From an uncultured Bacteroidia bacterium (GTDB lineage Bacteria; Bacteroidota; Bacteroidia; J057; CALLMJ01), in contig CALLNY010000030.1 in assembly GCA_938005475.1 (NCBI GenBank), positions 1-42,256 of the forward strand: 42,256 nt of DNA, in the 5' to 3' direction. The notes below the pieces were generated by a model, which worked only from the letters and a program-made list of their open reading frames with translations, searched no databases and was not told where the DNA came from. Positions 1 through 16,687 of the stretch are shown piece by piece. A program made the translations under genes and the position numbers. Each line of letters starts with the position of its first letter. The stretch's first letter is position 1.

Positions 1-393
1 AATTTCCCTAATCTCCCTTCTATTCTCCTCTACTCTTTTTTGAAATTCTTTTCTGGATTCTTCAAAAATTCTATCCCATTTCTCTTCAAACTCTTTAAAT
101 CTTTCATCGGTTTGCTTAAACTTTTCATCGGTTTGCTTAAATCTTTCATCGGTTTGCTTAAATCTTTCATCGGTTTGCTTAAACTTTTCATCGGTTTGCT
201 TAAACTTTTCATCGGTTTGCTTAAATCTTTCATCGGTTTGCTTAAACTTTTCATCAGTTTGTTTAAACCGTTCAGCTGTTTCTTTGAACCGCTCATCCGT
301 TTCTCTGAATCGTTCAGTCAGTTCCTGAAACTTTTTATCCGTTTCTTGGAACATCAACCAAACTTTCTCGAAGGTTAGTTCATTTTTTTTCAT
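1..393 (-). CDS. N-terminal fragment of a heptad-repeat coiled-coil protein (probable PD-(D/E)XK/DUF3782-like family), cut by left edge
   Basis: The frame opens at ATG 393-391 and stays open for 131 codons to base 1, so the C-terminus lies outside the window. It begins MKKNELTFEKVWLMFQETDK and then becomes an almost pure heptad series of the type KQTDE(R/K)F, with eight near-identical copies at residues 44-99 and looser copies (LTERFRE, TDERFKE, TAERFKQ) before them. F and T recur at fixed heptad positions and the rest is charged, so a long parallel coiled coil is expected. After residue 100 the repeat gives way to a charged helix (EFEEKWDRIFEES). Proteins that I recall with such TDERFKQ coils usually end in a PD-(D/E)XK nuclease-like domain; that part is not visible here. 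Two other long open frames over this DNA are by-products of the 21-base repeat, in which every frame is open. Family call is moderately sure, function is not known. Confidence 0.72.
   Translation of the reverse strand, partial: MKKNELTFEKVWLMFQETDKKFQELTERFRETDERFKETAERFKQTDEKFKQTDERFKQTDEKFKQTDEKFKQTDERFKQTDERFKQTDEKFKQTDERFKEFEEKWDRIFEESRKEFQKRVEENRREIREI
97..264 (-). repeat. 21-bp coding minisatellite, eight copies
   Basis: Eight tandem 21-base units encode the heptad KQTDE(R/K)F. Units differ almost only at the codon giving R or K (AGA versus AAG) and are otherwise nearly identical, including AAG CAA ACC GAT GAA. The unit length is a multiple of three, so gain or loss of units would keep the frame and change coil length by one heptad. 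Diverged units continue upstream in the gene to about base 348. Confidence 0.9.
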
Positions 394-587
394 AACTACA
401 AAAATAAGAAAGTTTTAAAAAATAAAAAAGCTTTAGATTAAAATTATCGTAGTTAAAAATTTTAATCTTTCCTTTAACTGACATAATCACATAACTAATA
501 TAATCACAAGCAAATCATAATGAATAACTTCATAAATTTTGAGATATTTGTAATCAAGGAAATAGTCAGTTTTTGATATTAGGCGTA

Positions 588-639
588 CCCTCTGTGAAAA
601 ACAATTCACCCACGGAGAGCAGAGAACACAGAAAAAAAG
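588..639. repeat. Dispersed intergenic repeat, copy 1 (CACAGA type)
   Basis: Contains CCCTCTGTG facing CACGGAGAG, followed by CAGAGAACACAGAAAAAAAG at 620-639. The latter 20 bases match 3751-3770 at 18 positions. Related words recur at 3687-3770 and 7335-7366, always between genes. Confidence 0.55.
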
Positions 640-670
640 TTATAATTAAATCAATATTTTCATAAGTATG

Positions 671-697
671 TAACGTATTGTTTTTAAATAAATTACG
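671..697 (+). repeat. 27-base intergenic repeat, copy 1
   Basis: This segment (core ATTGTTTTTAAATAAATT) is identical at 25 of 27 positions to 3648-3674. In both places it lies within about 40 bases of a CACAGA-type repeat, but on opposite sides of it. Confidence 0.65.
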
Positions 698-710
698 TGT
701 AAGTTTGAGA

Positions 711-749
711 ATGCTCACCTAAACTGGTAGTGACTACCCAAATGAGCAT
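711..749. repeat. Nested inverted repeat downstream of moxR
   Basis: Outer arms ATGCTCA (711-717) and TGAGCAT (743-749) enclose inner arms GGTAG (726-730) and CTACC (734-738) around a TGA loop. It lies just beyond the stop of the moxR-like gene. Neither side has the T-run expected of an intrinsic terminator, so its role is unclear. Confidence 0.4.
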
Positions 750-768
750 ATAAAAAACTTTCATAGCC

Positions 769-1746
769 TTAGATTTTTACGGTATTTAAAATTTGTTGAA
801 TACAATCATTGGCATGAATGTTAGCGGCATCGGCTTCGTAAGTTAGAATGACACGATGATTTAGGACATCCAATGCAATATTTTTTATATCTTCTGGGAG
901 GACATAATCTCTTTTATTAAGGAAAGCCAAAGCTTTAGAAGCGATATTTAAAGCAATAGTAGCCCGAGGAGATGCTCCAAATTCAATAAAAGATTTTAAT
1001 TTAGGTAGGCCATAATCTTGCGGTTTACGAGTTGCCATTACAAGGTCTACGATATAATCTTCAAGTCTTTCATTCAAGGAAATTTGATTGATGAACTTTC
1101 GTATTTCTAAGATATCGTGTTTTTTGAGAATAGGTTTCAAGTCATATTTCACTTCTGTTAGAGCCATTCTTTTCATGATGAGTTTTTCTTCTTCACGGGA
1201 AGGATAGTCCACATGAATTTTCATCATGAATCGGTCTATTTGGGCTTCTGGAAGTGGGTAAGTACCTTCTTGGTCGATAGGATTTTGGGTGGCAAGTACT
1301 AGGAAAGGATTATCTAGGGGATAAGTATTATCTCCAATGGTAACTTGCCTTTCCTGCATAGCTTCTAAAAGTGCACTTTGGACTTTAGCTGGCGAACGAT
1401 TAATTTCATCTGCTAAAATAATATTAGCGAAGATAGGTCCTTTTTTTACTTCAAAACGTGTTTCTTTCTGATTATAAATTAAAGTTCCGATGAGGTCTGC
1501 GGGGAGTAAATCAGGTGTGAATTGAATACGCTTAAAACTAACATCAATCAATTTGGAAAGAGTAGAGATGGTCAAAGTTTTAGCGAGACCTGGGACTCCT
1601 TCAATGAGGATATGACCATTAGTTAGCAAAGCAATCAATAATTTTTTTATCATATTTTCTTGCCCTACCACTACCTGGTGCAAGTTATATTCTACTTGTT
1701 CTAATAATTCAGCGGATTTTTGAATTTTAGTTTTTAGGTCATTCAT
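769..1746 (-). CDS. MoxR-family AAA+ ATPase
   Basis: Cytoplasmic AAA+ ATPase of the MoxR type, 325 residues, the usual length. Walker A is GVPGLAKT at residues 50-57, Walker B is in NIILADEINR at 108-117 followed by the MoxR signature SPAKVQSALLEAMQE, sensor 1 is ATQNP at 152-156, and EAQIDRF at 167-173 carries the expected arginine. The C-terminal helical lid contains SPRATIALNIASKALA and a DVLNHRVILTYEA segment typical of the family. MoxR proteins act as chaperone-like remodelers, often of VWA-domain partners. Here the usual DUF58/VWA neighbours are absent, although a VWA-like membrane protein is encoded at 20951. The gene starts 9 bases after the TPR gene and is almost certainly cotranscribed with it. 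Confidence 0.95.
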   Translation of the reverse strand: MNDLKTKIQKSAELLEQVEYNLHQVVVGQENMIKKLLIALLTNGHILIEGVPGLAKTLTISTLSKLIDVSFKRIQFTPDLLPADLIGTLIYNQKETRFEVKKGPIFANIILADEINRSPAKVQSALLEAMQERQVTIGDNTYPLDNPFLVLATQNPIDQEGTYPLPEAQIDRFMMKIHVDYPSREEEKLIMKRMALTEVKYDLKPILKKHDILEIRKFINQISLNERLEDYIVDLVMATRKPQDYGLPKLKSFIEFGASPRATIALNIASKALAFLNKRDYVLPEDIKNIALDVLNHRVILTYEADAANIHANDCIQQILNTVKI

Positions 1747-1755
1747 AAAAGGAAA

Positions 1756-2481
1756 TTATTTTGAGTTAAGTTGTTTTTCTATTTTAGCGAGAACATATAA
1801 AGCTTCTTCCTCGCCGAGGCTATAAGCATTTTGGTAATCCCATTTTGCTTTTTCGAGTTGCCCAGTCATAAAATAGATATGCCCACGATTGAGCCAAGCT
1901 TTTTCATGATTAGGATTTAGATTAATCAATTGAGAATAAGCTGATAAGGCTTGTTCAGGAAGATTATATTTTTCGTATGTATAAGCTAAATTAAACCAAG
2001 CTTGTTCGTCGGTTTTATCAATCTGTAATACATTTTCATAACATTCTATGGCTTTACCGTATTCGCATTGCAATAAATAAGTGTTACCTGCGTTATACCA
2101 TGCATTCGTATCCTCTAAACTGTAAGCTAAAATTTTTTTATAACATTCTAATTCCTTTCGATAAAAAAACTGTTGATGATATTCGTGGGCTTGCTCGTAG
2201 AGTTGTTTGATTTGATTACAATTATGAATGATTTGTATTGCTTGGGGATGGTCTTTATACCAATCCAGTACTCGGGATGCGGCATCTATACATTCTTCAT
2301 ACCAACCTCTTTGGAAGAGTAATTCTGAAGTGAGTAAGAATAATTCTACAATAAATTCAACATGGGGCGAGTCATGGGTAACAAACTTACGAATATTCTG
2401 CTGTAAATATTCAATTTTGTCTTCAAAAGCTTGTATTTGATGGAATTCTGCTTTTAAGGTAGCAATATTAGGAATTTTCAT
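1756..2481 (-). CDS. TPR-repeat protein
   Basis: A 241-residue soluble protein with no signal peptide. The C-terminal half has at least three tetratricopeptide repeats, at about residues 126-159 (AWYNAGNTYLLQ...), 160-193 (AWFNLAYTYEKYNLPEQAL) and 194-225 (AWLNRGHIYFMTGQLEKAK); the N-terminal half is probably degenerate TPR-like helices. The frame can be extended upstream, but the start MKIPNIATLK at 2481 is chosen because a TAnnTTTG box (TATTTTTG on the minus strand, 2493-2486) sits four bases before it and the extension has no homologue-like character. It is the first gene of an operon with the MoxR-like ATPase, which suggests a scaffold or partner role for that ATPase; this is an inference. 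Confidence 0.88.
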   Translation of the reverse strand: MKIPNIATLKAEFHQIQAFEDKIEYLQQNIRKFVTHDSPHVEFIVELFLLTSELLFQRGWYEECIDAASRVLDWYKDHPQAIQIIHNCNQIKQLYEQAHEYHQQFFYRKELECYKKILAYSLEDTNAWYNAGNTYLLQCEYGKAIECYENVLQIDKTDEQAWFNLAYTYEKYNLPEQALSAYSQLINLNPNHEKAWLNRGHIYFMTGQLEKAKWDYQNAYSLGEEEALYVLAKIEKQLNSK

Positions 2482-2485
2482 TCTG

Positions 2486-2519
2486 CAAAAATAGTAAAGA
2501 AGTTGAAAAGATTGGCAAA
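2486..2519 (-). promoter_or_regulatory. Bacteroidota-type promoter for the TPR-moxR operon
   Basis: On the minus strand TTTG (2519-2516), a 22-base spacer and TATTTTTG (2493-2486) match the TTTG/TAnnTTTG pattern. Only four bases separate the -7 box from ATG, so the mRNA should have almost no leader. Confidence 0.6.
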
Positions 2520-2558
2520 TAGTCAGATTTTCTTTCAAAATAAAAGTGAAGTAAAGGG

Positions 2559-2587
2559 TTTGTAAATTTGTAAAAAATGTAATTTTG
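2559..2587 (+). promoter_or_regulatory. Bacteroidota-type promoter for the FAH-family gene
   Basis: TTTG at 2559-2562, 17-base spacer, TAATTTTG at 2580-2587, then 14 bases to ATG 2602. It is divergent from the TPR promoter in the same 120-base gap. Confidence 0.6.
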
Positions 2588-2601
2588 CTGAAAATATTCA
2601 C

Positions 2602-3621
2602 ATGAAGTTATTGTATTGCTCACAACCACCTATCAAGTATATAGGCCTCTATCACGATGGAAAGGTTTTAAATTTAACACAAGTAGCTCAATGGGAAGGT
2701 AAAGTATTCCCAGATAAAATGGAGGATTTTTTACATCATTTAGAAGAATTTGAGAAAATAGCTCGTGAAATAGATAAAAAATTTAAGACGGGTTCTTATG
2801 TTGAGAGTTCTAAAAATTATGATGAGGTTTCTTTATTGGCGCCGGTGATGCGTCCTACTTCATGTAGAGATGCTTATGCTTTTCGCCAGCACGTTCAAAC
2901 GGCAAGAAGAAATCGTGGATTAGATATGATACCGGAATTTGACCAATTTCCTATTTTTTATTATACCAATCATTTGGCAATTACGGGTCCAGGTCCTATC
3001 ACTGTAATGGAAGATCATCTCCAACAATTAGATTTTGAATTAGAAGCGGCTGTAATTCTCGGGAGAAAAGGTAGAAATATTGATGCCAAGTATGCTGATG
3101 AGTATATTTTTGGTTACACTATCATGAATGATTGGTCTGCAAGAGTTCTACAAATGGAGGAGATGAAACTTTCATTAGGTCCTGCAAAAGGAAAAGATTT
3201 TGCTACTTCTATGGGTCCGATGCTAGTTACGCGCGATGAACTTATGCCTTATCAGGTTCCTACTAAAACAGGACATATTGGCGAGCAATTTCGCTTGGAA
3301 ATGAAAGCCCGTATCAACGGAAAACAAGTCTCTCATGGCTATTTATCCGATATGGACTGGACTTTTGCTGAAATCATAGAGCGTGTTTCGTATGGGGTTT
3401 CGGTTTTCCCTACGGATGTCATTGGTTCAGGAACAGTAGGAACAGGTTGTCTTCTAGAACTTAATGGTACTAGAAAATTAGAAAATCCTGATTACAAGCC
3501 CTACTGGCTCAAAGAAAGAGACGTCGTTGAATTAGAGATTACTGAACTAGGCATTCTCTCTAATACGATTGTCAAAGATTCCAAAAAACATTCTATTCTT
3601 GCCAAAAAACATAATAAATAA
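2602..3621 (+). CDS. Fumarylacetoacetate hydrolase (FAH) family protein
   Basis: A 339-residue protein of the FAH fold. The metal site is visible as the E-x-E motif in DFELEAAVILGRKG (E146, E148) and the aspartate of MNDWSAR (D177). The segment LGPAKGKDFATSMGPMLV (193-209) and the C-terminal GSGTVGTGCLLELN resemble bona fide fumarylacetoacetases, whose reaction splits 4-fumarylacetoacetate into fumarate and acetoacetate in tyrosine breakdown. The protein is shorter than eukaryotic FAH (about 420 residues) and has a short N-terminal domain. Other members of the superfamily act on acylpyruvates or dicarboxylic keto acids, so the exact substrate is open. It stands alone in its transcription unit; no other tyrosine-catabolism gene is in the window. 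Confidence 0.85.
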   Translation: MKLLYCSQPPIKYIGLYHDGKVLNLTQVAQWEGKVFPDKMEDFLHHLEEFEKIAREIDKKFKTGSYVESSKNYDEVSLLAPVMRPTSCRDAYAFRQHVQTARRNRGLDMIPEFDQFPIFYYTNHLAITGPGPITVMEDHLQQLDFELEAAVILGRKGRNIDAKYADEYIFGYTIMNDWSARVLQMEEMKLSLGPAKGKDFATSMGPMLVTRDELMPYQVPTKTGHIGEQFRLEMKARINGKQVSHGYLSDMDWTFAEIIERVSYGVSVFPTDVIGSGTVGTGCLLELNGTRKLENPDYKPYWLKERDVVELEITELGILSNTIVKDSKKHSILAKKHNK

Positions 3622-3647
3622 ACTAAACAAAATTTTGATATGCAATA

Positions 3648-3674
3648 TAACTAATTGTTTTTAAATAAATTACG
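3648..3674 (+). repeat. 27-base intergenic repeat, copy 2
   Basis: Matches 671-697 at 25 of 27 positions, same orientation, again in an intergenic region and again close to a CACAGA-type repeat. Confidence 0.65.
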
Positions 3675-3686
3675 CTAAAAAATTGA

Positions 3687-3770
3687 CCACAGAGGACATA
3701 AAAAACAATCTCCATCCCTTTATGCCCTCTGTGGAACTAAAACTCATCAACAGATAACACAGATAAAAAG
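3687..3770. repeat. Dispersed intergenic repeat, copy 2, with long inverted repeat
   Basis: CCACAGAGGACAT (3687-3699) and ATGCCCTCTGTGG (3722-3734) pair at 12 of 13 positions around a 22-base loop, and CAGATAACACAGATAAAAAG (3751-3770) matches 620-639 at 18 of 20. It lies between the convergent ends of the FAH-family gene and sppA, where a hairpin could also end transcription, although no clean T-run follows. Confidence 0.6.
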
Positions 3771-3802
3771 AAAAATCAAAAGAAGCCTTTGTCTTTTTTT
3801 GT

Positions 3803-5548
3803 CTATTTTACATTGTAATCAAATGGATCCAACATATAAACTCCCGATTGAATTTGTGCAATAGCTTTTAACTGTTTATACAATTGATATTGTTCTTTTG
3901 TAACATAAAGATTGGCAAAATAAGATTGTGTTTCGTTTTGAAGTATTTTTTTCCAAAAATTTTGAGGTTCTGGATAAGTAACAATTTGGTAATCATCTCC
4001 TAGACCAGCTTGTTTGGCAATACTTTTAATAGCATCATCTAAACTTCCAATTTCATCTACTAAACCAATTTGCTTGGCTCTTATTCCTGACCATACTCTA
4101 CCCTGTGCAATAGAATCGACAGCAAGGGAATCAGGGAAGTTTCTTCCTTTTTTTACTACGTTGATGAAATCTCCATAAATTCTATTTACTCCTTGTTGTA
4201 TCACATTCGCTTCATATTCGGACATAGGACGATTGGGATTAGCTAAATCTGCATATTGAGAAGTAGTGACACGGTCAAAAGTGATACCCAATTTGTTATT
4301 AAACATTTTTTGAGTATTGATTAGTAATCCAAATACTCCGATGGAGCCAGTAATAGTGGTTGGTTCTGCGAAAATTTTTTGACAATTTGCAGAGATATAA
4401 TACCCTCCTGATGCGGCAACATCTCCATAGGAAGCAAATACAGGTTTTTCTTTTTTGGCTAATTCTATTTCACGAGCCATCACATCTGAAGCTAATGCAG
4501 AGCCACCAGGAGAATTTACTCGGATAATAATCGCTTTTACATTTTTATCTAGTCTAGCTTCACGAACTGCTTTCACAAAAGTTTCCGAACCCAAATTATC
4601 TTCGTCACTCTGCCCCGAAATAATTGTCCCGACTGCATAAATTACCGCAATTTTATTTCCACTTTTCTTAGGCTCGTAATTTTTACCATATTTGCTTGCG
4701 TTGACAAAACGTACTTTTTCTTCTTTTCCTAAACCAGACTTCTCTCGTAATAAATCTAAAACTTCATCCTCAAATTTGATACCGTCAATAATTTGATAAT
4801 TTAGAGCATCTTGGGCTGTCTGTATTGTTAATTCATCGGCATATTTTTGCAAGGTAATCTCCGATATTGTACGAGCTTGAGACACATTTTTTAAAATATG
4901 CTTCCAAAAATCCCCTAAAAAGGTTTTTACTTGTAGCCTATTCGCATCAGACATTTTGTCTAGAATGAATGGTTCAACGGCAGATTTATAGGTACCTACT
5001 CTAAATACTTTAGGTTCGATTTCTAATTTCTGTAGGGTTCCTTTGTAGAACATAGGATTAGAACTTAATCCGTTCCATTCCACTGCACCATTTGAATATA
5101 AAAAGATTTTATCTGCCGCCGTGCACAAATAATACATTTTTTTGGAGTACACCTCTCCGTAAGCATAGATAAATTTTTTTGATTTTTTAAATTCCAACAG
5201 CTCATTTCTTAAAGCTTCCAAAGTAGCCCAACCACCTGAACCTAACATCCCTACATTCAAGTATATACCTTTGATTTTATCATCAGTAGAAGCCTTTCGA
5301 ATTGCATGCTGAAGAGTCCTCAAATCAATAGGCTCCAAGTCTCCTAATAATCTATTCACGGGATTTTCTTCCTTAAACTCCTCTATCGTTCCCGTTAAAT
5401 TGATTTTTAAGATGGATTGATCTTGTACCCTAAGTGCTTGGTCTTTACTTAAACTTGAAATGGAAACAACAACCACAATAAAACCCACCAAAAAAATTAA
5501 AATGCCTGCTAAAAAAGCCGCAAAAAAATAACCCAAAAACTTTCTCAT
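3803..5548 (-). CDS. sppA: Signal peptide peptidase SppA, 67-kDa (tandem S49) type
   Basis: Membrane-anchored serine protease that degrades cleaved signal peptides. At 581 residues it has the long, duplicated form with two S49 domains. A single membrane segment spans residues about 5-30. The N-terminal domain carries the catalytic lysine in FRVGTYKSAVEPF (K188), and the C-terminal domain carries the nucleophile in YGDVAASGGYYISAN (S380), matching the Lys/Ser dyad split between domains in the E. coli enzyme. IIRVNSPGGS (341-350) is the usual oxyanion-side motif. The start at MRKFLGYFFAAF gives a proper membrane anchor. A near-match -7 box (TAATATTG on the minus strand, 5573-5566) lies upstream. 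It is transcribed alone, divergent from secG. Confidence 0.95.
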   Translation of the reverse strand: MRKFLGYFFAAFLAGILIFLVGFIVVVVSISSLSKDQALRVQDQSILKINLTGTIEEFKEENPVNRLLGDLEPIDLRTLQHAIRKASTDDKIKGIYLNVGMLGSGGWATLEALRNELLEFKKSKKFIYAYGEVYSKKMYYLCTAADKIFLYSNGAVEWNGLSSNPMFYKGTLQKLEIEPKVFRVGTYKSAVEPFILDKMSDANRLQVKTFLGDFWKHILKNVSQARTISEITLQKYADELTIQTAQDALNYQIIDGIKFEDEVLDLLREKSGLGKEEKVRFVNASKYGKNYEPKKSGNKIAVIYAVGTIISGQSDEDNLGSETFVKAVREARLDKNVKAIIIRVNSPGGSALASDVMAREIELAKKEKPVFASYGDVAASGGYYISANCQKIFAEPTTITGSIGVFGLLINTQKMFNNKLGITFDRVTTSQYADLANPNRPMSEYEANVIQQGVNRIYGDFINVVKKGRNFPDSLAVDSIAQGRVWSGIRAKQIGLVDEIGSLDDAIKSIAKQAGLGDDYQIVTYPEPQNFWKKILQNETQSYFANLYVTKEQYQLYKQLKAIAQIQSGVYMLDPFDYNVK

Positions 5549-5656
5549 ATCAATAATTTGGTTGCAATATTATGGATTTTCAGTTATAATAAAAAAGTGA
5601 TTTGAAGATTATCGGTTTAAGAAAAAGATAAAAGGATAAAACAAACCATAATTTTT

Positions 5657-5688
5657 TTTGTGATTCTCAAATCACTTACTTAAATTTG
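5657..5688 (+). promoter_or_regulatory. Bacteroidota-type promoter for secG
   Basis: Textbook arrangement: TTTG (5657-5660), 20-base spacer, TAAATTTG (5681-5688), then 16 bases to the ATG of secG at 5705. Confidence 0.7.
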
Positions 5689-5704
5689 CACTTTTAAAAG
5701 TTTT

Positions 5705-6052
5705 ATGTACGGAGTACTTATTACCTTATTGATTATTGCATGTACGCTTCTGATTTTAGCGGTATTGATACAAAACTCAAAAGGAGGAGGTTTATCTTCT
5801 GCGATTGCAGGAGTATCAAACGCTCAACAATTATTAGGGGCAGTTCGCTCAGCAGATTTAATTGAAAAAATTACTTGGTATCTAGCGGGTTCTATTGTAG
5901 CAATTATCATTATCAGTAACATTTTTGTAGAAAAAGAACAAGTGAAAACAGACTTAAAGATGAAAAATCAATTAGAAAATCAAATAATTGTTAATCCAAC
6001 ACAAACCCCTAATACTAATCAGTTTAAACAACAAAATAATCCAAACGAATAA
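5705..6052 (+). CDS. secG: Preprotein translocase subunit SecG
   Basis: Small inner-membrane subunit of the SecYEG channel. The 115-residue protein has two membrane segments (about residues 3-22 and 56-76). Between them lies the family signature LIQNSKGGGLSSAIAG followed by a conserved loop with NAQQLLGAVR and SADLIEKITW. The C-terminal 35 residues are polar, Gln/Asn-rich and likely disordered, a common SecG extension in this phylum. A strong promoter lies immediately upstream. The thiolase gene follows after three bases, so the two are cotranscribed, although their functions are unrelated. Confidence 0.94.
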   Translation: MYGVLITLLIIACTLLILAVLIQNSKGGGLSSAIAGVSNAQQLLGAVRSADLIEKITWYLAGSIVAIIIISNIFVEKEQVKTDLKMKNQLENQIIVNPTQTPNTNQFKQQNNPNE

Positions 6053-6055
6053 CCT

Positions 6056-7264
6056 ATGAAAACCGCATATATTTATGACGCTGTAAGAACACCACGTGGT
6101 AGAGGGAAGAAAGATGGTTCCTTACACGAGGTTACTCCTGTTCGTTTAGTAACTACCTTATTAGATGCATTGAAAGAAAGGAATTCTTTGGACACTTCTC
6201 TGGTTGAAGATATCATTTTGGGGTGTGTAACTCAGATTGGTGAGCAAGGAGGAGAGATAGCAAAAACAGTATCTATGGCGGCTGGATATCATCAAAGAGT
6301 TTCAGGAGTAACTATCAATCGCTTTTGCGGTTCTGGATTGGAAGCTATCAACCAAGCATCCGCTTATATTATGAGTGGTCAATGTTCTGTAATAATTGCG
6401 GGGGGAGTAGAATCTATGTCGCGAATTGAGATGGGTTCTGATGGTGGCGCATGGTATATGGACCCCTCCGTTTCAATTCCTACTTATTTTGTACCTCAAG
6501 GTATTGCCGCAGACCTTTTAGCAACAAAGTATGGTTATTCTCGTAATGATGTAGATACTTTTGCTTATCATTCTCACCAAAGAGCCGCATTAGCATGGAA
6601 AAATCAATATTTCCAAAAATCTATTATACCTGTCAAAGATATTAACGGCTTAACTTTGTTAGATAAAGATGAAACAATAAGACCAGATACTACCCTAGAA
6701 AAACTATCTACGTTAGAACCTTCTTTCGTTCAGCATGGGCAAATGGGCGGATTTGACGCAGTAGCAACCCAACGTTACCCAGAAATTGAAGAGGTAAAAC
6801 ATGTACATCACGCAGGTAATTCATCAGGCATTGTGGACGGCTCCAGTTTAGTTTTGTTAGGAGACGAAGAGTTTGGCAATAAAACAGGATTAAAACCACG
6901 TGCTAAAATTGTGGCTTTTGCTGTAATTGGTACCGAACCTACCATCATGCTGACAGGTCCCATCGATGCTACTCAATTAGTACTCCAAAAAGCTGGTCTA
7001 ACTATTGACCAAATAGATTTATTTGAAGTAAACGAAGCTTTTGCGGCAGTAGTATTACGTTATATGGATGCTCTTAAAGTTCCTCATGATAAAGTCAATG
7101 TAAATGGTGGGGCTATTGCTATGGGACATCCACTTGGTGCTACAGGTGCCATTTTAACAAATACGGTCCTAGATGAATTAGAACGAAGAAACCTTCAACG
7201 TGGTTTAATTACTCTTTGCATCGGTGGGGGTATGGGAATAGCTACCATTATCGAAAGAGTCTAG
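6056..7264 (+). CDS. Acetyl-CoA C-acyltransferase (thiolase)
   Basis: Thiolase of 402 residues. The acylated cysteine is C91 in INRFCGSGLEAINQA, the histidine is H358 in NGGAIAMGHPLGATGA, and the second cysteine is C388 in LITLCIGGGMG; NEAFAAVV is also present, so all catalytic blocks are intact. It either cleaves 3-ketoacyl-CoA at the end of a beta-oxidation turn or condenses two acetyl-CoA. The sequence DAVRTPRGRGKKDGSLHEV at the N-terminus resembles the degradative FadA/FadI-like group more than biosynthetic PhaA, which would fit the ETF and acyl-CoA dehydrogenase genes nearby. Three bases separate it from secG. Substrate chain length cannot be read from the sequence. Confidence 0.93.
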   Translation: MKTAYIYDAVRTPRGRGKKDGSLHEVTPVRLVTTLLDALKERNSLDTSLVEDIILGCVTQIGEQGGEIAKTVSMAAGYHQRVSGVTINRFCGSGLEAINQASAYIMSGQCSVIIAGGVESMSRIEMGSDGGAWYMDPSVSIPTYFVPQGIAADLLATKYGYSRNDVDTFAYHSHQRAALAWKNQYFQKSIIPVKDINGLTLLDKDETIRPDTTLEKLSTLEPSFVQHGQMGGFDAVATQRYPEIEEVKHVHHAGNSSGIVDGSSLVLLGDEEFGNKTGLKPRAKIVAFAVIGTEPTIMLTGPIDATQLVLQKAGLTIDQIDLFEVNEAFAAVVLRYMDALKVPHDKVNVNGGAIAMGHPLGATGAILTNTVLDELERRNLQRGLITLCIGGGMGIATIIERV

Positions 7265-7334
7265 AATATCGATACGACTGTGCACAGGGAAAATCGTCGT
7301 TTTGTTAAAATTATCTCTTCTTTATGACTCTTTT

Positions 7335-7366
7335 TCTCTGTGTTTTTCTATGTTCTCTGTGGTTAA
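7335..7366 (-). repeat. Dispersed intergenic repeat, copy 3 (CACAGA type)
   Basis: Read on the minus strand it starts TTAACCACAGAGAACATAG and continues with AAAAACACAGAGA. The words ACCACAGAG and ACACAGA are shared with the copies at 588-639 and 3687-3770. Confidence 0.55.
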
Positions 7367-7510
7367 TCTTTTATCACAAAGAAGTGTTAAGGTTATCTAA
7401 TTTTCCACTTTAAATTTATGCATAATTTATTCAATACAATCAATTATTGTATATCAAAACTTTGTTCAAATCATCTATTAAGTTGGCTTGATTGGTGGGC
7501 TGTTGTCAAT

Positions 7511-7552
7511 ATAAAAAACAAAAAAGTGAGGCTACCATTATTAGGGTAGCCT
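7511..7552 (-). terminator. Intrinsic terminator of the etfB-etfA operon
   Basis: AGGCTACC (7529-7536) and GGTAGCCT (7545-7552) form an 8-bp perfect stem with an 8-base loop. On the minus strand the stem is followed by CACTTTTTTGTTTTTT, a classic U-tract, starting 28 bases after the etfA stop. Confidence 0.85.
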
Positions 7553-7579
7553 TTGAATTTCAAAGTATAAGACAATTAT

Positions 7580-8557
7580 TTAGTGGCTTGCCTTATATTT
7601 TTTTACAGACTGGATGAGAGCGGGAACTACTTGGAAGGCGTCCCCTACGATACCTACATCGGCGGCTTTAAAGAAAGGGGCTTCGGGGTCTGAATTAATC
7701 ACCACAATGGTTTTAGAAGAACTTACACCAGCAAGGTGTTGAATAGCCCCTGATATTCCAATTGCGATATAAACATTTGGTGAGATTTGAATTCCCGTTT
7801 GCCCAACGTGTTCGTGGTGAGGTCTCCATTCTACATCAGCAACCGGTTTACTACAAGCCGTAGCCGCTCCTAATAAATCCGCTAATTCTTCAATCATACC
7901 CCAGTTTTCAGGTCCTTTTAAACCCCTTCCCGCAGAAACTACAATATCCGCTTCTGTTAAACTGATTTTAGAGGAAGCTTTGATTACTCTTTGTGGTTTT
8001 AACAATAAATCTCTTGCGGAAGGCTCAAATACGAAATTTTCCACTAATCCTGACGCAGGATTCTTCTCCACCTTATAAGCGTTACTCTTTAAAGTTATTA
8101 CTAACTTATCACGTTGAGTGGATGTTGTTTCAATTGCCTTTAAGGAATATGCAGAGCGTTGTACTTCATATCCATTACCAGATTTAGCGATTAAAGAAGT
8201 TACTCCAGAAAACATAGCGGCATCTAGCTTTACTGCTACACGAGGAGCAACCGCCCTACCGTTGTAGGTTTGTGGAATAACTACAATTTGAGATTGAGTT
8301 TGTTTCGCTACGGTTGCAATCCCTGATGCGTAAGCAGGACCAATAAACGAAGCTAATGCAGGATGGTTAATCACAAAGATTTTCGATGCACCATGAGTCG
8401 CTAAATTTTGATACTGTTCATCGGAGGCTGTCCCAAATGCTACGGCATGTACTTCCGTTCCTAAATTTTTTGCTACTACGCTAGCATAACTTAAAGCCTC
8501 GAAAGTGGGCTTCTTAAAAGTACCATTAACATTTTCTGCAAATACTAATATAGCCAT
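7580..8557 (-). CDS. etfA: Electron transfer flavoprotein subunit alpha
   Basis: FAD-binding subunit of the soluble electron transfer flavoprotein, which takes electrons from acyl-CoA dehydrogenases to the ETF:quinone oxidoreductase. The protein is 325 residues, the usual length. The C-terminal FAD domain shows GRGLKGPENWGMIEELADLLGA, the block VADVEWRPHHEHVGQTGIQISPNVYIAIGISGAIQHLAG, and INSDPEAPFFKAADVGIVGD, which together bind FAD. The N-terminal domain is an adenine-nucleotide hydrolase-like fold. It lies 27 bases downstream of etfB and ends at a clear terminator, so the pair is a two-gene operon. The AidB-like acyl-CoA dehydrogenase at 15037 is a possible electron donor. Confidence 0.96.
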   Translation of the reverse strand: MAILVFAENVNGTFKKPTFEALSYASVVAKNLGTEVHAVAFGTASDEQYQNLATHGASKIFVINHPALASFIGPAYASGIATVAKQTQSQIVVIPQTYNGRAVAPRVAVKLDAAMFSGVTSLIAKSGNGYEVQRSAYSLKAIETTSTQRDKLVITLKSNAYKVEKNPASGLVENFVFEPSARDLLLKPQRVIKASSKISLTEADIVVSAGRGLKGPENWGMIEELADLLGAATACSKPVADVEWRPHHEHVGQTGIQISPNVYIAIGISGAIQHLAGVSSSKTIVVINSDPEAPFFKAADVGIVGDAFQVVPALIQSVKKYKASH

Positions 8558-8584
8558 AATCTATCTTTTTGTTAAATCTATAAA

Positions 8585-9319
8585 TTATAAAGCACCTTTC
8601 TCCGATAAAATTTGAACTAATTTATCGGTTTCATCGGGTTTTAAGTAGATACAGCCTTGTTTAGCTGGAGGTTGAGTTAATTTTATGGTTTGAGTGTAGT
8701 AAGGAATATCAACAGGAGTAATCACTTGAATAGGTTTGGTTCTTGCCGCCATAATACCTTTTACATTAGCAATACGCCATTCTGCAAGTCCTTTTTGGGC
8801 ACTCAAAACTAAAGGTAAATCACAAACAATTTCTTCTTTACCTCCATCAATTTCACGCGTTAGAGTAGCAGTATTACCGTTGATATCAATGGAAGTTGCG
8901 AAGGAAATATCAGGTAAATCCAAAAGTTCGGCTACCATGCCACTAACTTGAGAACCATTAAAATCAATGGATTCTTTACCGAACATAATCAAATCAAAGC
9001 TTTGAGTTTTAGCGTATTCTGCAATTTGTTTAGCAACAAAGAAAGCATCTAAAGGCTCTGCATCAATTCTAACTGCTTGGTCTCCTACAATAGCAATCGC
9101 TTTTCGGATGGTAGGGTCCACCTCCGCTTTTCCAACACATAAAATGGTTATATTTGCTCCTTGTTTTTCTTTGAGTTCTGCGGCTCTACTTAAGGCAAAT
9201 TCATCGTAAGGACATACAATAAAAGTAACCCCTGCTTTGTTTAATGCTTTTCCTTCCGCATCAAATTGTATTTTGGTGGTTGTGTCAGGAACATGACTAA
9301 TACAAACTAATATTTTCAT
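8585..9319 (-). CDS. etfB: Electron transfer flavoprotein subunit beta
   Basis: AMP-binding partner of EtfA, 244 residues. It starts MKILVCISHVPDTTTKIQFD and shows the family blocks NKAGVTFIVCPYDEFALSRAAELKE, the segment DLIMFGKESIDFNGSQVSGMVAELL, and the late IMAARTKPIQVI. These are standard for the beta subunit in which AMP plays a structural role. The gene is first in the etfB-etfA operon. Its promoter is a clear TATATTTG box on the minus strand at 9347-9340 with a TTG 20 bases upstream. The order etfB-etfA is the usual one. Confidence 0.96.
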   Translation of the reverse strand: MKILVCISHVPDTTTKIQFDAEGKALNKAGVTFIVCPYDEFALSRAAELKEKQGANITILCVGKAEVDPTIRKAIAIVGDQAVRIDAEPLDAFFVAKQIAEYAKTQSFDLIMFGKESIDFNGSQVSGMVAELLDLPDISFATSIDINGNTATLTREIDGGKEEIVCDLPLVLSAQKGLAEWRIANVKGIMAARTKPIQVITPVDIPYYTQTIKLTQPPAKQGCIYLKPDETDKLVQILSEKGAL

Positions 9320-9339
9320 TGAATTTTAAAATTTGTCGG

Positions 9340-9370
9340 CAAATATAATGGAAAGGTTGAAGAATACCAA
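9340..9370 (-). promoter_or_regulatory. Bacteroidota-type promoter for etfB-etfA
   Basis: On the minus strand TTG (9370-9368), 20-base spacer, TATATTTG (9347-9340), 20 bases before the etfB ATG. Confidence 0.6.
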
Positions 9371-9426
9371 CCTATTTCAAAAAAACATTTTTTTTCGTTT
9401 TTTCATTCCATTGTATTTTGAAATAA

Positions 9427-9873
9427 TTAAAAGTACTGAATTATTGTGTTACCGGAGTAAGCAAAAACTAATGACCAAAAAAAAGTGCTGATACACATGG
9501 CAATAATAACTTTATGGGCTGGTGCTCCAAAACCTAACGAAAGAGCAGTGCCAATAGGTTGCGATAGAATGGGAGGCGTAATAAACGCAATCCCCACTAA
9601 TCCAAATTTATCCCATATTTTTTGTTTCCAATCTTTTTTTGTATTAGAATCATTTCGTGTTTCTGTTATACCCTGATTTTTTTTTTTATTCCACCATCTT
9701 CTAATTTGACTTCCAAACAAAGTATATAAAACCATTCCAATAGACCCCCCCGTAAAATAACATAAAAACAGTTCAACGAAAGATAAATCTGTTGCTAAAC
9801 CACTTGCAATTCCAACCATATACTTTACAGCGCATAATGCAGTTACGGTAATATAACTTATCATGGATGCCAT
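9427..9873 (-). CDS. Small integral membrane protein, possibly of the small multidrug export family
   Basis: A 148-residue protein with two hydrophobic halves (about residues 5-55 and 90-147) around a charged cytoplasmic-type loop rich in K, R, D, N and W (RRWWNKKKNQG to DWKQKIWDKF). The second half, FGLVGIAFITPPILSQPIGTALSLGFG, resembles the proline- and glycine-rich loop of the small multidrug export family (PF06695), but that match is from memory and unproven. A near-consensus promoter lies upstream on the minus strand (TTTG 9927-9924, 20-base spacer, TATTTTTA 9903-9896), back to back with that of the next gene. Transport substrate is unknown. Confidence 0.6.
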   Translation of the reverse strand: MASMISYITVTALCAVKYMVGIASGLATDLSFVELFLCYFTGGSIGMVLYTLFGSQIRRWWNKKKNQGITETRNDSNTKKDWKQKIWDKFGLVGIAFITPPILSQPIGTALSLGFGAPAHKVIIAMCISTFFWSLVFAYSGNTIIQYF

Positions 9874-9895
9874 TCTTAATTATCAGAAATTTTCG

Positions 9896-9952
9896 TAAAA
9901 ATAATAAGTAAATTCCAGTTTGTCAAATGTGCATAGTTTTTTGATACCTTTG
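9896..9952. promoter_or_regulatory. Overlapping divergent promoters
   Basis: Plus strand: TTTG 9919-9922, 22-base spacer, TACCTTTG 9945-9952. Minus strand: TTTG 9927-9924, 20-base spacer, TATTTTTA 9903-9896. The two -33 boxes share the near-palindromic nine bases TTTGTCAAA, so the promoters occupy the same DNA and should compete. Confidence 0.6.
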
Positions 9953-9967
9953 CATAAAAGATTTAAT

Positions 9968-11467
9968 ATGAATAGAAATATTTGGATAGTCCTTTTGATT
10001 AGTGTTTTTTGGGGAGATGGTTTACATTCTCAAAAATTTAAAGATGTAACTGTGTTTAATTGTGAAGGTTATTCACTAGAAAAAATAGGATACCCTTCTA
10101 AAATGGTATCAGACGGTAAAGGGAATTTGTATTTTGTCGAATATTGGATGTTCGGGAAAGGGGGCAGGAGAGTAACCGGACGATATTTACAATGTATAAA
10201 TCCCAAAATGGAAGAAGTATGGTTTAAACCCACCTTCTCAGAAAACCAAAATATGACCTACGAATTTATGGACTTGTTTATGCTAAATAAAAGCCTTGCT
10301 GTAATTGGCAATATACCAATAGATAAAAAAGAAAAAAAGACGGTGGTACAGTTCTTCGGTCTGAATGGAAAAGAATTAACTCCACAATTGACGATGTCTA
10401 ATTTAGAGGTGTTTGGAGCGAAATATAATGATTTTGAACAATTTATTATTCCTTCATCAGATTCCTTGAATATTTTATGGTTGGGTTATAATCCCAAAGC
10501 TTCTGCTAATAAAAGGAGAGTTTTTGCATCTGTTTTTGGCACAGATGGAAAAAAATTATGGTCTAATGAATTAAGTTTACCGTACACCGATAAAAAGTAT
10601 ATCATTAGACAAACGTTAGTAGATAAAAAAGGAAATCCTTATTTCTTGATGGTCTATGAAAAATATCTAAACCTTTTAGAAGAAGACAAAAAAAATCTAC
10701 CAGTCGTAATAAAATATGATTACAAGCAAAAAAAATACTTTGAATTTCCGATTACATTTGAGAATGCGGCAGTACCCGAAATCAATATGTATATCAATTC
10801 GGAAAATAACTTATTGTTGGTAGGAGCGATTGCGGATGGTAATCCTGGTATACAAAATGGAGATAAAATCTACGAGAAGCCCTTGAATTGGTCTAAATTC
10901 TTTTATAAGCGATTGAATGTGTGGGAAGGAATGAAGGTAGACCAAGAGAATTTCGTAGAAATTCCAGAAAATATTCAACAGAAATATGCCCAAACTCCTG
11001 CAAATTTTCGGGAAAATTTGTTGATAGAAAGAAACGGAAAACTTTTATGGCTTATAGAGGAAGCTTATCAACAAACTAAAGACGGTGGAAAACTTTTTTA
11101 TAGGAATGACGTTGCAGTACTGTGCGTAGATATGAAAGAAGGAAAGATACAATGGTCTACAATTATTGAAAAAAAACAACGAGATTTTAATAATGACCAA
11201 TTGTTCTCCTATGTATGGCATTTTTCAGGTAACCGATTGAATTTATTTTATTTAAGTGAGAAAGGAGCAGGAGGGAAAGGTATGAATTCAGGAATAGACT
11301 TAAATACAGGAGAACTGCTGACACAAGAAGTTTTTAAAAATGAAAGTTCCAATTATTATTTCTTCCCTTCTCGTAGTACATCGGTAGATGAAAAAACCTT
11401 GATTTTATTAGGAGTAGGAAAAGTGAATGCGAATCAATATTCTTTACTAAGAATAACGTATTTCTAG
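9968..11467 (+). CDS. Secreted protein of unknown function, possible beta-propeller
   Basis: A 499-residue protein that I do not recognise. Residues 1-21 (MNRNIWIVLLISVFWGDGLH) form a signal peptide. The frame extends upstream to a TTG at 9920, but the promoter -7 box TACCTTTG lies inside that extension, so the ATG at 9968 is the real start. The mature part shows recurring short strands ending in hydrophobic-aromatic pairs, with motifs such as DGKGNLYFVEYW, DKKGNPYFLMVYE, NLLLVGAIADG and GKLLWLIEEAY, each about 60-80 residues apart, in keeping with a beta-propeller or a similar repeated beta fold. No catalytic motif is seen. Its 3' end overlaps the convergent cyclase gene by 21 bases. Confidence 0.75.
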   Translation: MNRNIWIVLLISVFWGDGLHSQKFKDVTVFNCEGYSLEKIGYPSKMVSDGKGNLYFVEYWMFGKGGRRVTGRYLQCINPKMEEVWFKPTFSENQNMTYEFMDLFMLNKSLAVIGNIPIDKKEKKTVVQFFGLNGKELTPQLTMSNLEVFGAKYNDFEQFIIPSSDSLNILWLGYNPKASANKRRVFASVFGTDGKKLWSNELSLPYTDKKYIIRQTLVDKKGNPYFLMVYEKYLNLLEEDKKNLPVVIKYDYKQKKYFEFPITFENAAVPEINMYINSENNLLLVGAIADGNPGIQNGDKIYEKPLNWSKFFYKRLNVWEGMKVDQENFVEIPENIQQKYAQTPANFRENLLIERNGKLLWLIEEAYQQTKDGGKLFYRNDVAVLCVDMKEGKIQWSTIIEKKQRDFNNDQLFSYVWHFSGNRLNLFYLSEKGAGGKGMNSGIDLNTGELLTQEVFKNESSNYYFFPSRSTSVDEKTLILLGVGKVNANQYSLLRITYF

Positions 11468-12241
11468 TGGTTTAATCCATACACTGGAAGGCACGGCATC
11501 TTCTTGCCAATTCGGGAAACCTATAAAAGTTTCATAAATACCGTCGGGTATATTATCATGTATAAAGACAAGTTCTGTAATGGTTTTATTAGGGTAAGCA
11601 GAAGGTTCTAGCGTATAATTTTTTAAAGGCTGATTCCAAAAAATATGGTGATTACTTAAAAAACCTTCATCGTATGCTTTGTCTAATGAGGGAACATCCA
11701 CGATTAAATGTTTAAAGCCTAATTGACATAAATATTGGATTGCATCATTAGAAAAAAAAGGAGCAGGCTCGATGTTGTAATCTCTATGTTTTTTATCAGG
11801 ATTATTAGGAAGCGTACGTATAATAATACCTTCAACATCATGTTGAGTAATTTGTGGTAAGTAAGGGGATATAGATTTTTCTAAATTGTATTTGAGTAGG
11901 AGTTTATCATCTTTTTCTAAACTGGGAAAATATTTTTCTTGGATATTATGGTTATGTATATAGAAAGAAATGCTAATTAGCAAAGACTTGAAAAAGGGGT
12001 TAATTAGAACGTTGGATAAGGTGATATGCTCATTTACAATATGCCCGATGCACTCAGTATGCGTTCCATTGCAATGGGGAGTGATAGAAATGGTATTAAA
12101 ATTACAAGAGCCGCCATGTTGGGTAGCACCTATCCATACGCCTGACTGGTAAGGTATAGAACTCGCCGCTGGAACGTCATACATCTTAATTTGATTCTTA
12201 CTATCTCGTAAGTTTATTTTTATACTAATATTTTGAAACAT
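11447..12241 (-). CDS. Cyclase-family (kynurenine formamidase-like) hydrolase
   Basis: A 264-residue cytoplasmic protein of the cyclase family PF04199, which includes metal-dependent kynurenine formamidase and isatin hydrolase. The metal-binding signature, normally HxGTHxDxPxH, appears as TPHCNGTHTECIGH (H56, H61, E63, H67), so the usual aspartate is replaced by glutamate. Later blocks include IIIRTLPNN, YLCQLGFKHLIVDVPSLDKAYDEG and NHHIFW, which fit the family's substrate-side region. A TAAATTTG -7 box lies on the minus strand at 12263-12256, 14 bases before the ATG. The 3' end overlaps the convergent upstream gene by 21 bases. Substrate is not predictable. Confidence 0.82.
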   Translation of the reverse strand: MFQNISIKINLRDSKNQIKMYDVPAASSIPYQSGVWIGATQHGGSCNFNTISITPHCNGTHTECIGHIVNEHITLSNVLINPFFKSLLISISFYIHNHNIQEKYFPSLEKDDKLLLKYNLEKSISPYLPQITQHDVEGIIIRTLPNNPDKKHRDYNIEPAPFFSNDAIQYLCQLGFKHLIVDVPSLDKAYDEGFLSNHHIFWNQPLKNYTLEPSAYPNKTITELVFIHDNIPDGIYETFIGFPNWQEDAVPSSVWIKPLEIRYS

Positions 12242-12255
12242 TTTAAATTATATTG

Positions 12256-12263
12256 CAAATTTA
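12256..12263 (-). promoter_or_regulatory. -7 promoter box of the cyclase-family gene
   Basis: TAAATTTG on the minus strand, 14 bases before ATG. No convincing -33 box at normal spacing. Confidence 0.45.
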
Positions 12264-12403
12264 TGAGATTTATTTTACAAGTTTATACTTAAAAATACGT
12301 ATTTTAAAATTTTTTTATTATAAACGCAACAACTTATATGCACTGTACGTTATATTTGTAGTGTTTTTCATGGTTTAGTTTAGGTTAAATGCCTCTCATA
12401 ATG

Positions 12404-12411
12404 TATTTTTG
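12404..12411 (+). promoter_or_regulatory. -7 promoter box of the metalloprotease gene
   Basis: TATTTTTG, 24 bases before ATG 12436 and followed by GGGAGG, a purine-rich stretch that could aid ribosome binding. It overlaps the alternative TTG start, which is therefore rejected. Confidence 0.5.
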
Positions 12412-12435
12412 TACAGATGGGAGGTTTTTGTTTTT

Positions 12436-13572
12436 ATGATACGGTTTCTGTTTTTGCTTTATTTATTGAGTTTTTACGGTTTCACGCAAAATATTCCTTG
12501 GGAAAATTATGTTCCGAGAGATAGGCGTTTTTTCCCGATTGTGCGATTAAAATTAGTGGTACATATACTTCAAAAAACCGATGGTAGTAATAACTTCCAA
12601 AATATCCCAGAACACATTGAAGCGATTGAAAGGGTTTTATTTCATGCATATTCCATTTATGAAAACTTAAAACCTTTAAATTTGGGAAAATCGGAATATA
12701 TCCCTGATTCGCGTATACGTTTAATATATTCTCGTGACCAGATATATTTTCATCAAAATGACCGCTATAACGATTTAAGTTGTATTGGGAAGTACGGTTC
12801 TTGCTCAAGTTTGATGCAAGAAATTTATAAAGAATTGGTGCTGAATAACCCTAAACAGGACCTGAATGCTCTGCATGTTTTTTTCGGTGAAGGAGATGAA
12901 GCGAAAGGTGAAGCCTGTGGAATTGGTTGTAAAAAGTGGTGTTATATTACAGGGGCTTATAAACAATTTCTGAAAGAAAATAACTTTTGGATTAGTGGTG
13001 GACTTTTAGCACATGAAATTGGTCATAACTTAGGATTGTACCACACGGTCTTTAAAAAAAAACCTTCTAACGATTATTGTGATGATACTCCTACGTACCC
13101 CGAAAACCCTGACTGCTGGAACGGACCTGAATGCTCTAATAACATGATGGATTACAATGCTAATAAAGATGCTCTCTCTGCTTGCCAACTCGGAAGAATT
13201 CATTACTTCCTTTCCTCCAAAGCACCCGGTGACATTAAAGAAACTATCTTGAAAGATTGGTGTATTTTTCATTCAGACTCTTTAGTTAACATAAATAGCT
13301 ACGAAGAAATTATCTTAAAAGGTGAATACCGTTTACAAGGCAATTTAATTTTGTATCCTCATTCTACTTTAAACGTAGAGGGTATTTTGCATCTACCTCA
13401 AAATGCTTATATTCTGCTTTATCCAAAATCTAAACTCATTGTGAATGGTAAAATTACCAATTTATGCGGTGATAGTTGGCAAGGTGTTCTCCCTAAAAAT
13501 AAAAAAAAGCAAAAACTTAAAGAACAAGTTATATTAAACGGTAAATTAGAAAATTGTTTGAACCAGCCCTAA
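12436..13572 (+). CDS. Secreted zinc metalloprotease, pappalysin/M43-like metzincin
   Basis: A 378-residue secreted protease. Residues 1-18 (MIRFLFLLYLLSFYGFTQ) are a signal peptide. The zinc motif is complete: AHEIGHNLGLYH with H193, E194, H197 and H203, and the Met-turn is NNMMDYN at about 235-241, which together identify a metzincin; the Cys-rich surroundings (CDDTPTYPENPDCWNGPEC) resemble M43 enzymes. The last 90 residues, with EIILKGEYRLQGNLILYPHSTLNVEGILHLP and LYPKSKLIVNGKI, look like a short parallel-beta-helix tail rather than the usual C-terminal sorting domain. The start is set by the promoter box upstream. The gene is convergent with the alpha/beta hydrolase. Substrate is unknown, but extracellular proteolysis is likely. 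Confidence 0.82.
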   Translation: MIRFLFLLYLLSFYGFTQNIPWENYVPRDRRFFPIVRLKLVVHILQKTDGSNNFQNIPEHIEAIERVLFHAYSIYENLKPLNLGKSEYIPDSRIRLIYSRDQIYFHQNDRYNDLSCIGKYGSCSSLMQEIYKELVLNNPKQDLNALHVFFGEGDEAKGEACGIGCKKWCYITGAYKQFLKENNFWISGGLLAHEIGHNLGLYHTVFKKKPSNDYCDDTPTYPENPDCWNGPECSNNMMDYNANKDALSACQLGRIHYFLSSKAPGDIKETILKDWCIFHSDSLVNINSYEEIILKGEYRLQGNLILYPHSTLNVEGILHLPQNAYILLYPKSKLIVNGKITNLCGDSWQGVLPKNKKKQKLKEQVILNGKLENCLNQP

Positions 13573-13599
13573 ATAATCCCTATAAAGAAGGAGAACAAG

Positions 13600-14412
13600 T
13601 TATTTATGGAGACTTTTAAAAAATGCTAAAATAGCGTTTACTTCGCTATCCCAATAGGTATAATCATGTTTGGCTTTTTCATCCAAATGATAAATGACGT
13701 TTAAGTCGGGGGCGATTTTTTTAATATGTTGGAATAAAATTTCGGATTGTTGATAAGGTATAATCTTGTCCAGTTTGCCGTGTCCAATATAGAGAGGAGT
13801 TTGGTAGAATTTCATTAAATAGATAACATTATCATGGTATTTCCAACGGTCGGGGAATTGTTTGAAGGGTCCATAGAAGCCGTTCATAACACCGTCATGA
13901 GGGATAAGGGTTTGGTCGTAATCACCAGAGAGTGCGGCGGCACCTCTGAATAGGCTGGGGAGATCTAAGGTTAATAATAAAACGCCCCTTGCTCCTGTTG
14001 AAAGCCCTACCAAAAAATTATTTTCGTTTTCCATAAGAATTTGATATTCTTTTTGTAAGTATGGAATAAGTGAACCTGTAAACCATTTTCTTGTAGGATA
14101 TTGAAGCCAGTCTTTGCGTGTTTCAGGATAGTTTTGGGACTGATAAGTACTTTTTCCCATTTCAGGCATAATCAAACGATAACCTTGGTTTAGAGCTTTT
14201 TTGCATATAGAAGATTTTAAACACCAATCTTCCTTTGGAAAATTCCAACCAGGTAATAAAATCAAATTCCCTTGTACCTTAATAGAGTCAGGGGGGATAG
14301 CGATATCGCATTTTTGTCCATCAATCGTTAAGGTTTGGTATTGTTTTAAAGGCTTTTGCGCAAAAACAATGTCACAAGTAATTAAAATAATCAGAATAAT
14401 TAAAATTTTCAT
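13600..14412 (-). CDS. Secreted alpha/beta hydrolase (esterase-like)
   Basis: A 270-residue protein with a signal peptide (MKILIILIILITCDIVFA), and this decides the start at 14412 although the frame runs 27 codons further upstream. The alpha/beta-hydrolase triad is readable: nucleophile in VGLSTGARG (GxSxG), acid in GHGKLDKIIP and histidine in KAKHDYTYWDSE. The core VQGNLILLPGWNF carries the oxyanion-side loop. The GHGKLD and HDYTYWDSE blocks resemble the esterase D/putative-esterase group, but no specific substrate can be given. The gene lies 61 bases downstream of the small secreted protein gene, with which it may be cotranscribed. Confidence 0.8.
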   Translation of the reverse strand: MKILIILIILITCDIVFAQKPLKQYQTLTIDGQKCDIAIPPDSIKVQGNLILLPGWNFPKEDWCLKSSICKKALNQGYRLIMPEMGKSTYQSQNYPETRKDWLQYPTRKWFTGSLIPYLQKEYQILMENENNFLVGLSTGARGVLLLTLDLPSLFRGAAALSGDYDQTLIPHDGVMNGFYGPFKQFPDRWKYHDNVIYLMKFYQTPLYIGHGKLDKIIPYQQSEILFQHIKKIAPDLNVIYHLDEKAKHDYTYWDSEVNAILAFFKSLHK

Positions 14413-14473
14413 TCTAACTTCATACCTAATAAAAATTGATCTAAATCGCATACTTTCTGCAAAAGCATCTTCT

Positions 14474-16683: not shown

Positions 16684-16687
16684 GAAG

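Follow-up and report, generated by a model that had tools for sequence, protein, structure and literature searches.

The 42,256-nucleotide stretch analysed here (the window) is the whole of contig C30, end to end. Its edges are very probably formed by two members of one dispersed multicopy family whose copies stopped the assembler. The family is a known but little-studied one, with an N-terminal heptad coiled coil followed by a PD-(D/E)XK nuclease-like domain. We further consider it likely that ectopic gene conversion keeps the copies alike, and that the coil changes in length by slippage or unequal crossing-over. The genome of C30 comprises 2,632,282 bases in 105 contigs, and hence 210 contig ends. 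The organism probably belongs to Bacteroidota, since G027, a genome labelled as of its class, has the protein that is also present in a named Bacteroidetes MAG (L053). Features of the window are collected in Table 1.

Table 1. Family features at the two edges of the window (contig C30)
Feature	Position	Strand	Basis or context
5' part (131 codons) of coiled-coil/PD-(D/E)XK gene	1–393	−	Runs in frame into contig C44
Exact 141-nt overlap with start of C44	1–141	−	Contig-end comparison
21-nt (7-residue) tandem repeats coding for coiled coil, 9.9 copies	95–302	−	Tandem Repeats Finder
3' end (46 codons and TGA stop) of second family member, with KGLFVIKATG	42116–42256	−	Translation; identity with C49, near-identity with C104

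The initial annotation, made from the letters of the window, had described an N-terminus with TDERFKQ heptads at the left edge and a C-terminus with KGLFVIKATG at the right, both on the minus strand, and each is seen on translation. The left reading frame is stop-free over its 131 residues and carries TDE(R/K)FKQ heptads, with a 63-nt higher-order unit (3.0 copies, 93% matches, positions 95–281; Tandem Repeats Finder), while the right fragment gives 46 residues and a stop. That these are the two ends of one family, and that its middle domain lies in neither, also held: the fragments match the corresponding parts of two proteins of the same genome, P0003 and P0004, and the absent central part is the PD-(D/E)XK nuclease-like domain. 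The single family assumed for both edges stands at the level of the family, but the edges belong to different subfamilies, the C-terminus supplied by C44 comparing with the right fragment at 59%.

When eight contig ends were compared, the left edge was continued only by the start of C44, giving a gene of 271 codons in total, 187 of them on C44 (47 of these shared), that ends in a nuclease-like domain. At the other edge, C30 ends in exactly the 141 nt with which C49 starts, and the two sequences diverge from the first base past the stop codon. A third 3' end, on C104, is nearly the same and agrees at 127 of the final 130 nt. Together with three near-identical 5' ends, at the starts of C11, C37 and C89, the 3' ends on C30, C49 and C104 make it likely that there are three near-identical copies with a common middle that was collapsed. 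The exact 141-nt common ends are the mark of a de Bruijn assembly at k=141, a value at which MEGAHIT commonly ends. We infer that the assembler stopped at the repeated coil at the left edge and at the near-identical copies at the right. In all, eight of the 210 contig ends lie in the family (both ends of C30 and one each of C44, C49, C11, C37, C89 and C104), against about 0.45 expected by chance on our own estimate, which assumes eight copies of 700 nt. This count and the exact common ends bear out the proposal that a multicopy family broke the assembly at both ends.

The left fragment has nine matches in its own genome and the right fragment eight, the genes being partly common to both. Two of the nine, on C31 and C10, probably reflect coil similarity only. 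The C31 locus (L023, 62175–62315) encodes a distinct protein whose heptads are similar and which, by eye, has an apparent membrane segment; it has no nuclease domain and its likeness to the family is probably confined to the coil. Full-length members, for which the initial annotation had suggested a genome search, were found on C38 (P0003, 226 aa) and C92 (P0004, 207 aa), in addition to the gene that spans C30 and C44. The three near-identical copies are presumed to be full-length, which brings the number of copies that are intact, or presumed to be so, to about six, with remnants in addition. One remnant, on C89, carries a stop as well as a deletion, and another, on C37, is a truncated copy; each stands in tandem immediately before another copy's start. 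The C89 remnant is itself preceded by a further C-terminal tail fragment (tandem remnants of locus L019, about 435–1000 of C89). A short AT-rich intergenic repeat is also present in the window at 3596–3700 and 644–697, one copy adjoining the left-edge gene; it occurs at no fewer than 16 places in its own genome, itself included (40 of 79 candidates scored), and at several in the genus mate G001.

Full-length members begin with a short conserved motif, L-T-F-E-K-V-W-L-x-F-Q-E-T or near to it, and have a coil of heptads with some 11-residue units (both by eye). The score to Pfam PDDEXK_10 was 23.1 bits for the C44 copy (cut-off 21.2), with the C38 and C92 copies below the cut-off at 17.5 and 16.4, and 5 of 35 relatives matched this family at E 0.01. 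For Hjc (PF01870; cut-off 21.1) the C92 copy scored 25.4 bits and a relative, L051, 22.6, the C38 and C44 copies being below; again 5 of 35 relatives matched at E 0.01. DUF3782 (PF12644) matched 11 of the 35 relatives at E 0.01 or better. It gave no match at E 1 to the C38, C92 and C44 copies and was not among the 25 families listed, of 26, for the window fragment, although filters for repetitive sequence may hide a match in both searches. PF04754 (Rpn) gave no row at E 1 for the same three copies and was not among the 25 of 34 families listed for alignment A3. Nothing came near the cut-off in a search of NCBIfam, where the best score to the Hjc equivalog was 23.6 of 70.

Alignment A3 holds 35 of the 42 loci found across several phyla by a pattern scan of genome contigs; L059, L060, L073, L076, L077, L087 and L092, which are broken, truncated, misframed or contain N, were left out. 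Its active-site columns are almost fully conserved (E91 in 34 of 35 sequences, E126 in 33, and D128, E141 and K143 in all 35), and the E...D...ExK motif is also present in the C38, C92 and C44 copies. The invariance of A190, G194, F196 and V197 arises partly because the scan pattern selected these C-terminal columns. In 12 of 13 pairs dN/dS was 0.04–0.34, the thirteenth being not computable; six of the 13 have a dS of 1.3–2.3 and one is saturated, which makes these ratios rough. Based on the retention of active-site residues and the low dN/dS, the proteins are probably functional.

An AlphaFold2 model of L051 (pLDDT 90.2, pTM 0.64) has a continuous helix over residues 12–103, followed by the strands and helices of the nuclease domain. 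In VIA-align that domain (about residues 80–215) was best matched by 2vld (Z 10.7, 2.8 A rmsd, 106 residues aligned), and further top rows were 5gke (10.4), 8bao (10.3) and the XisH-type 2okf (8.9), along with proteins of unknown function. Foldseek returned three matches at E of 0.001 or less; TM-scores were low, 0.27–0.36 in the first five rows. A sequence search of solved structures gave only engineered repeat proteins and one match at E 0.98. A fold in common with known enzymes does not by itself show function. In a PADLOC scan of A3 the most frequent matches were to the Csx1 model PDLC01037 (15 of 35, best E 8.9e-8) and to CARF_PDDEXK (14 of 35, best E 7.1e-6), with ZorA also matched. The Csx1 matches of L051 start inside its coil, and we judged these matches to be cross-hits from a nuclease fold and coil in common and rejected membership of a defence system.

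To define where similarity between copies ends, the 43 loci of 11 genomes were compared in all pairs within each genome, which gave 124 pairs for the 3' side (L077, the second copy on L088 and single-locus genomes were left out). Among them, 21 pairs had an ungapped identity of 80% or more across the final 130 nt. In every one of these, exact identity ends 0–10 nt past the stop codon, and ungapped identity over the 60 nt beyond is 13–30 of 60; the 21 pairs come from eight genomes and have members in common, and are therefore not independent. Against this pattern, the alignment of L065 and L067 reaches 14 nt past the stop, and two pairs have flanks in common once gaps are allowed. L055 and L056, from Desulfamplus, align with gaps over 2897–3748, past the stop that ends at 3603. 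The other pair is that of the C37 and C89 tandem remnants, which, save for a small gap, are alike from their stop to the start of the following copy, a distance of roughly 50 nt; a deletion in the C89 remnant puts this pair outside the ungapped count. As a separate observation, stretches of about 94 nt recur many times in the flanks of L055, L056 and a third Desulfamplus locus, L064. At the 5' side the boundary is more diffuse: of 96 pairs, 11 attain 80% over 60 nt, and of these ten have exact upstream runs of 0–4 nt and one, a tandem pair, a run of 41 nt. Upstream identity goes up to 46 of 60.

Three recent pairs show the 3' boundary as well. Directly past the stop, identity is 21 of 60 for L081/L082 (dS 0.06), 18 of 60 for L088/L089 (dS 0.21) and 24 of 60 for L051/L052 (dS 0.26). 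As a control, one insertion sequence (IS) pair from the genome of C30 (87.7% over 464 nt) could be aligned for about 37 nt beyond the stop codon of one of its members. C104 is a mosaic: the last 18 nt of its reading frame are those of C30 and C49, while its 3' flank starts with the 15 nt that follow the stop in the C89 remnant. A reading-frame end of one type next to a flank of the other is as would be left by conversion ending at the edge of homology. No terminal inverted repeats or target duplications were noticed by eye at the printed ends of the copies.

Near-identical copies differ in the length of their coil. The C89 and C11 copies are identical at 258 of 261 aligned nt, and yet the coil of the former is longer by 162 nt, in frame. 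Similarly, L081 and L082 are 98.6% identical over 513 nt, and an 18-residue unit present once in L082 occurs in at least three copies in L081, a lower bound since L081 begins at a contig edge. L051 and L052 (94% protein identity) differ by 25 residues in total length. In the genome G197, L138, L139 and L141 have a very different nuclease domain and an N-terminus common to other G197 copies, and L132 and L139 agree at 20 of 28 residues at the N-terminus and 25 of 110 at the C-terminus. This suggests domain swapping through the coil in G197.

P0003 matched in 4 of 40 genomes, its own included, and alignment A2 in 9 of 198 genomes from the phylum, again with its own, G197 alone giving 18 matches. 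In G001 there was no match to P0003, and A2 gave only a sub-threshold one (E 0.039). Family loci lie close to contig ends more often than expected: 12 of 42 were within 600 nt (4.89 expected; reached in 174 of 200,000 simulations), 7 of 42 within 300 nt (2.45 expected; 1539 of 200,000) and 15 of 42 within 1000 nt (8.15 expected; 570 of 200,000), with the reservation that the loci are not independent and that the simulations cover contigs of at least 3 kb only. Five of the 15 stretches examined in G197 run off the contig end within the gene. In a tree of 48 nuclease domains (without L059, L060, L073, L077, L087, L092 and L089, seven of the 42 loci, and without partial copies of G000 and G197), the ten genome groups need 10 changes, against a minimum of 9 and a mean of 21.1 after shuffling; taken singly, G197 needs 3 and JAPPIY 2. 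Paralogs thus group mostly by genome, a result consistent, for most lineages, with either concerted evolution or a recent expansion.

Gene order relative to G001, the only genus mate compared, is scrambled almost gene by gene. Positions 1–19999 and 22300–42256 of the window fall into 17 main blocks of 71–82% identity, each on a different G001 contig (40 of 320 and 40 of 285 candidates scored, respectively). Rearrangement at family copies had been considered and was dropped, since the window itself is split in this control and breaks at family copies therefore carry no information. Orthologues of flanking genes were found in G001 when it was searched for empty sites, and in the 12 regions compared no alignment crossed a family gene; with gene order so scrambled, no empty site came to light.

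Several other explanations have to be weighed against this evidence. The initial annotation had pointed out that the two edges, if joined, would be in register (131 and then 47 codons), and both frames are open to the edge, as would be expected if a circular element had been opened within a single gene, leaving half of it at each edge. The register has no meaning: 47 codons are simply 141 nt, the length of the assembler's overlap, and here that overlap finishes on the stop codon itself. The exact overlaps rule out such a joining: through its overlap with C44 the left edge leads on to a complete nuclease domain whose C-terminus differs from the right-edge fragment, and the latter recurs in C49. 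In addition, P0003 had no match in the plasmid and phage collections and A2 no relative in IMG/VR. We regard a circular element as refuted. A second idea is that the family is a mobile element consisting of a bare reading frame, in which the nuclease would carry the sequence that encodes it into further intergenic positions, with the start and stop codons as its ends. Near-identical reading frames with unrelated 3' flanks and a boundary at or just past the stop in eight genomes would fit this, as would the patchy spread across phyla and the lack of an above-threshold match in the genus mate. Against it, the 5' boundary differs from pair to pair, C104 keeps the flank of another copy with a different reading-frame end (which fits conversion), and neither inverted repeats nor target duplications were noticed, by eye, at the printed copy ends. 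Moreover, the Rpn authors, in the passages that bear on this point, state that no autonomous transposase with the PD-(D/E)XK fold is known (PMC10327210). We therefore hold mobility of this kind to be improbable.

Plain lineage-specific duplication, with 3' flanks lost through breakpoints and later decay, would account for the flank that the C89 and C37 tandem remnants have in common and for the common flanks of the Desulfamplus pair, and pairs with dS above 1 would have lost similarity in their flanks anyway. The young pairs are harder to accommodate: at a dS of 0.06–0.26 they should retain most of their flank similarity, so neutral decay fails to explain flanks at background level, least of all in L081/L082. 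The IS control, a single pair, also remained alignable past its stop. Duplication alone is accordingly an unlikely account of the boundary, and we return to conversion between the coding sequences of dispersed copies as the preferred reading.

The mechanism that we propose is as follows. A PD-(D/E)XK endonuclease would oligomerise through its coil, as its predicted fold and coil suggest, and, as the boundary and the mosaic C104 indicate, recombination inside the coding region would swap sequence between copies. Conversion would run out at the stop codon, where homology runs out. Slippage or unequal crossing-over among the coil units may then produce the changes in coil length, the differences themselves being directly visible in the copies. 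Coil length may, finally, pick the partner copies, as repeat number does in Rpn, an idea that we carry over as a hypothesis. A literature search on gene conversion with coil repeats gave no match. That the protein cuts DNA as a metal-dependent endonuclease and forms oligomers through its coil, whose length would decide which copies pair, seems to us about an even call. It is doubtful that the family goes further and both spreads and homogenises its own coding sequences, with hardly anything around them, by ectopic conversion stimulated by its cutting, with the coil as a variable-length code against cross-pairing; if that were so, the genome would carry a self-diversifying set of coil-matched nucleases.

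For genome assembly, the family is a repeat that is hard for short-read assemblers to cross, contig ends within it should not be taken for truncated genes, and its copy numbers in draft genomes may be underestimates. The breakage that the initial annotation had noticed is an ordinary assembly effect; with the boundary and the coil pattern added, we consider the case to be of moderate interest.

Among known enzymes, the nuclease domains of NucS/EndoMS and Can2/Card1 are the best structural matches (Z 10.7 and 10.3). NucS has an N-terminal domain of its own and Can2 a CARF domain, and in the L051 model the long helix replaces either of these. The likeness to Hjc is one of sequence, with two (C92 and L051) of the four proteins whose scores were listed (C38, C92, C44 and L051) passing the Pfam cut-off; Hjc is not known to have a long coiled coil. 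The closest Pfam family is PDDEXK_10/DUF1626 (PF07788, COG5493), which, like the family here, has a C-terminal nuclease-like domain and an N-terminal coiled coil. The coil of the relatives corresponds to DUF3782, which our own C38, C92 and C44 copies did not match at E 1.

A coiled-coil/nuclease family of this kind has been described in PMC1913061 and PMC4786415, whose passages on it give no tested function. The same passages mention neither similarity confined to the reading frame nor differences in coil length between near-identical paralogs. According to PMC4786415, crenarchaeal coils have beta-layer nonads and bacterial coils are said to be without them. Archaeal DUF1626 genes are reported to share operons with genes of the HEPN and MNT types (PMC3710099).

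The pattern resembles that of the Rpn (recombination-promoting) nucleases (COG5464, PF04754), which, in the sections of PMC10327210 that describe them, are also PD-(D/E)XK proteins with many copies per genome, in arrays, and have helix repeats that vary in number but no inverted repeats or target duplications. According to the same sections, the ends of the varying region differ, the repeats are of four residues in a C-terminal domain that is also made as a separate small antitoxin, and repeat number sets pairing specificity (PMC10327210, a preprint). The family here differs in having units of 7 and 11 residues, N-terminal to the nuclease. Similarity bounded by the stop codon and a changing coil length recur over several phyla in parallel with Rpn, and this parallel gives a testable prediction for an uncharacterised family.
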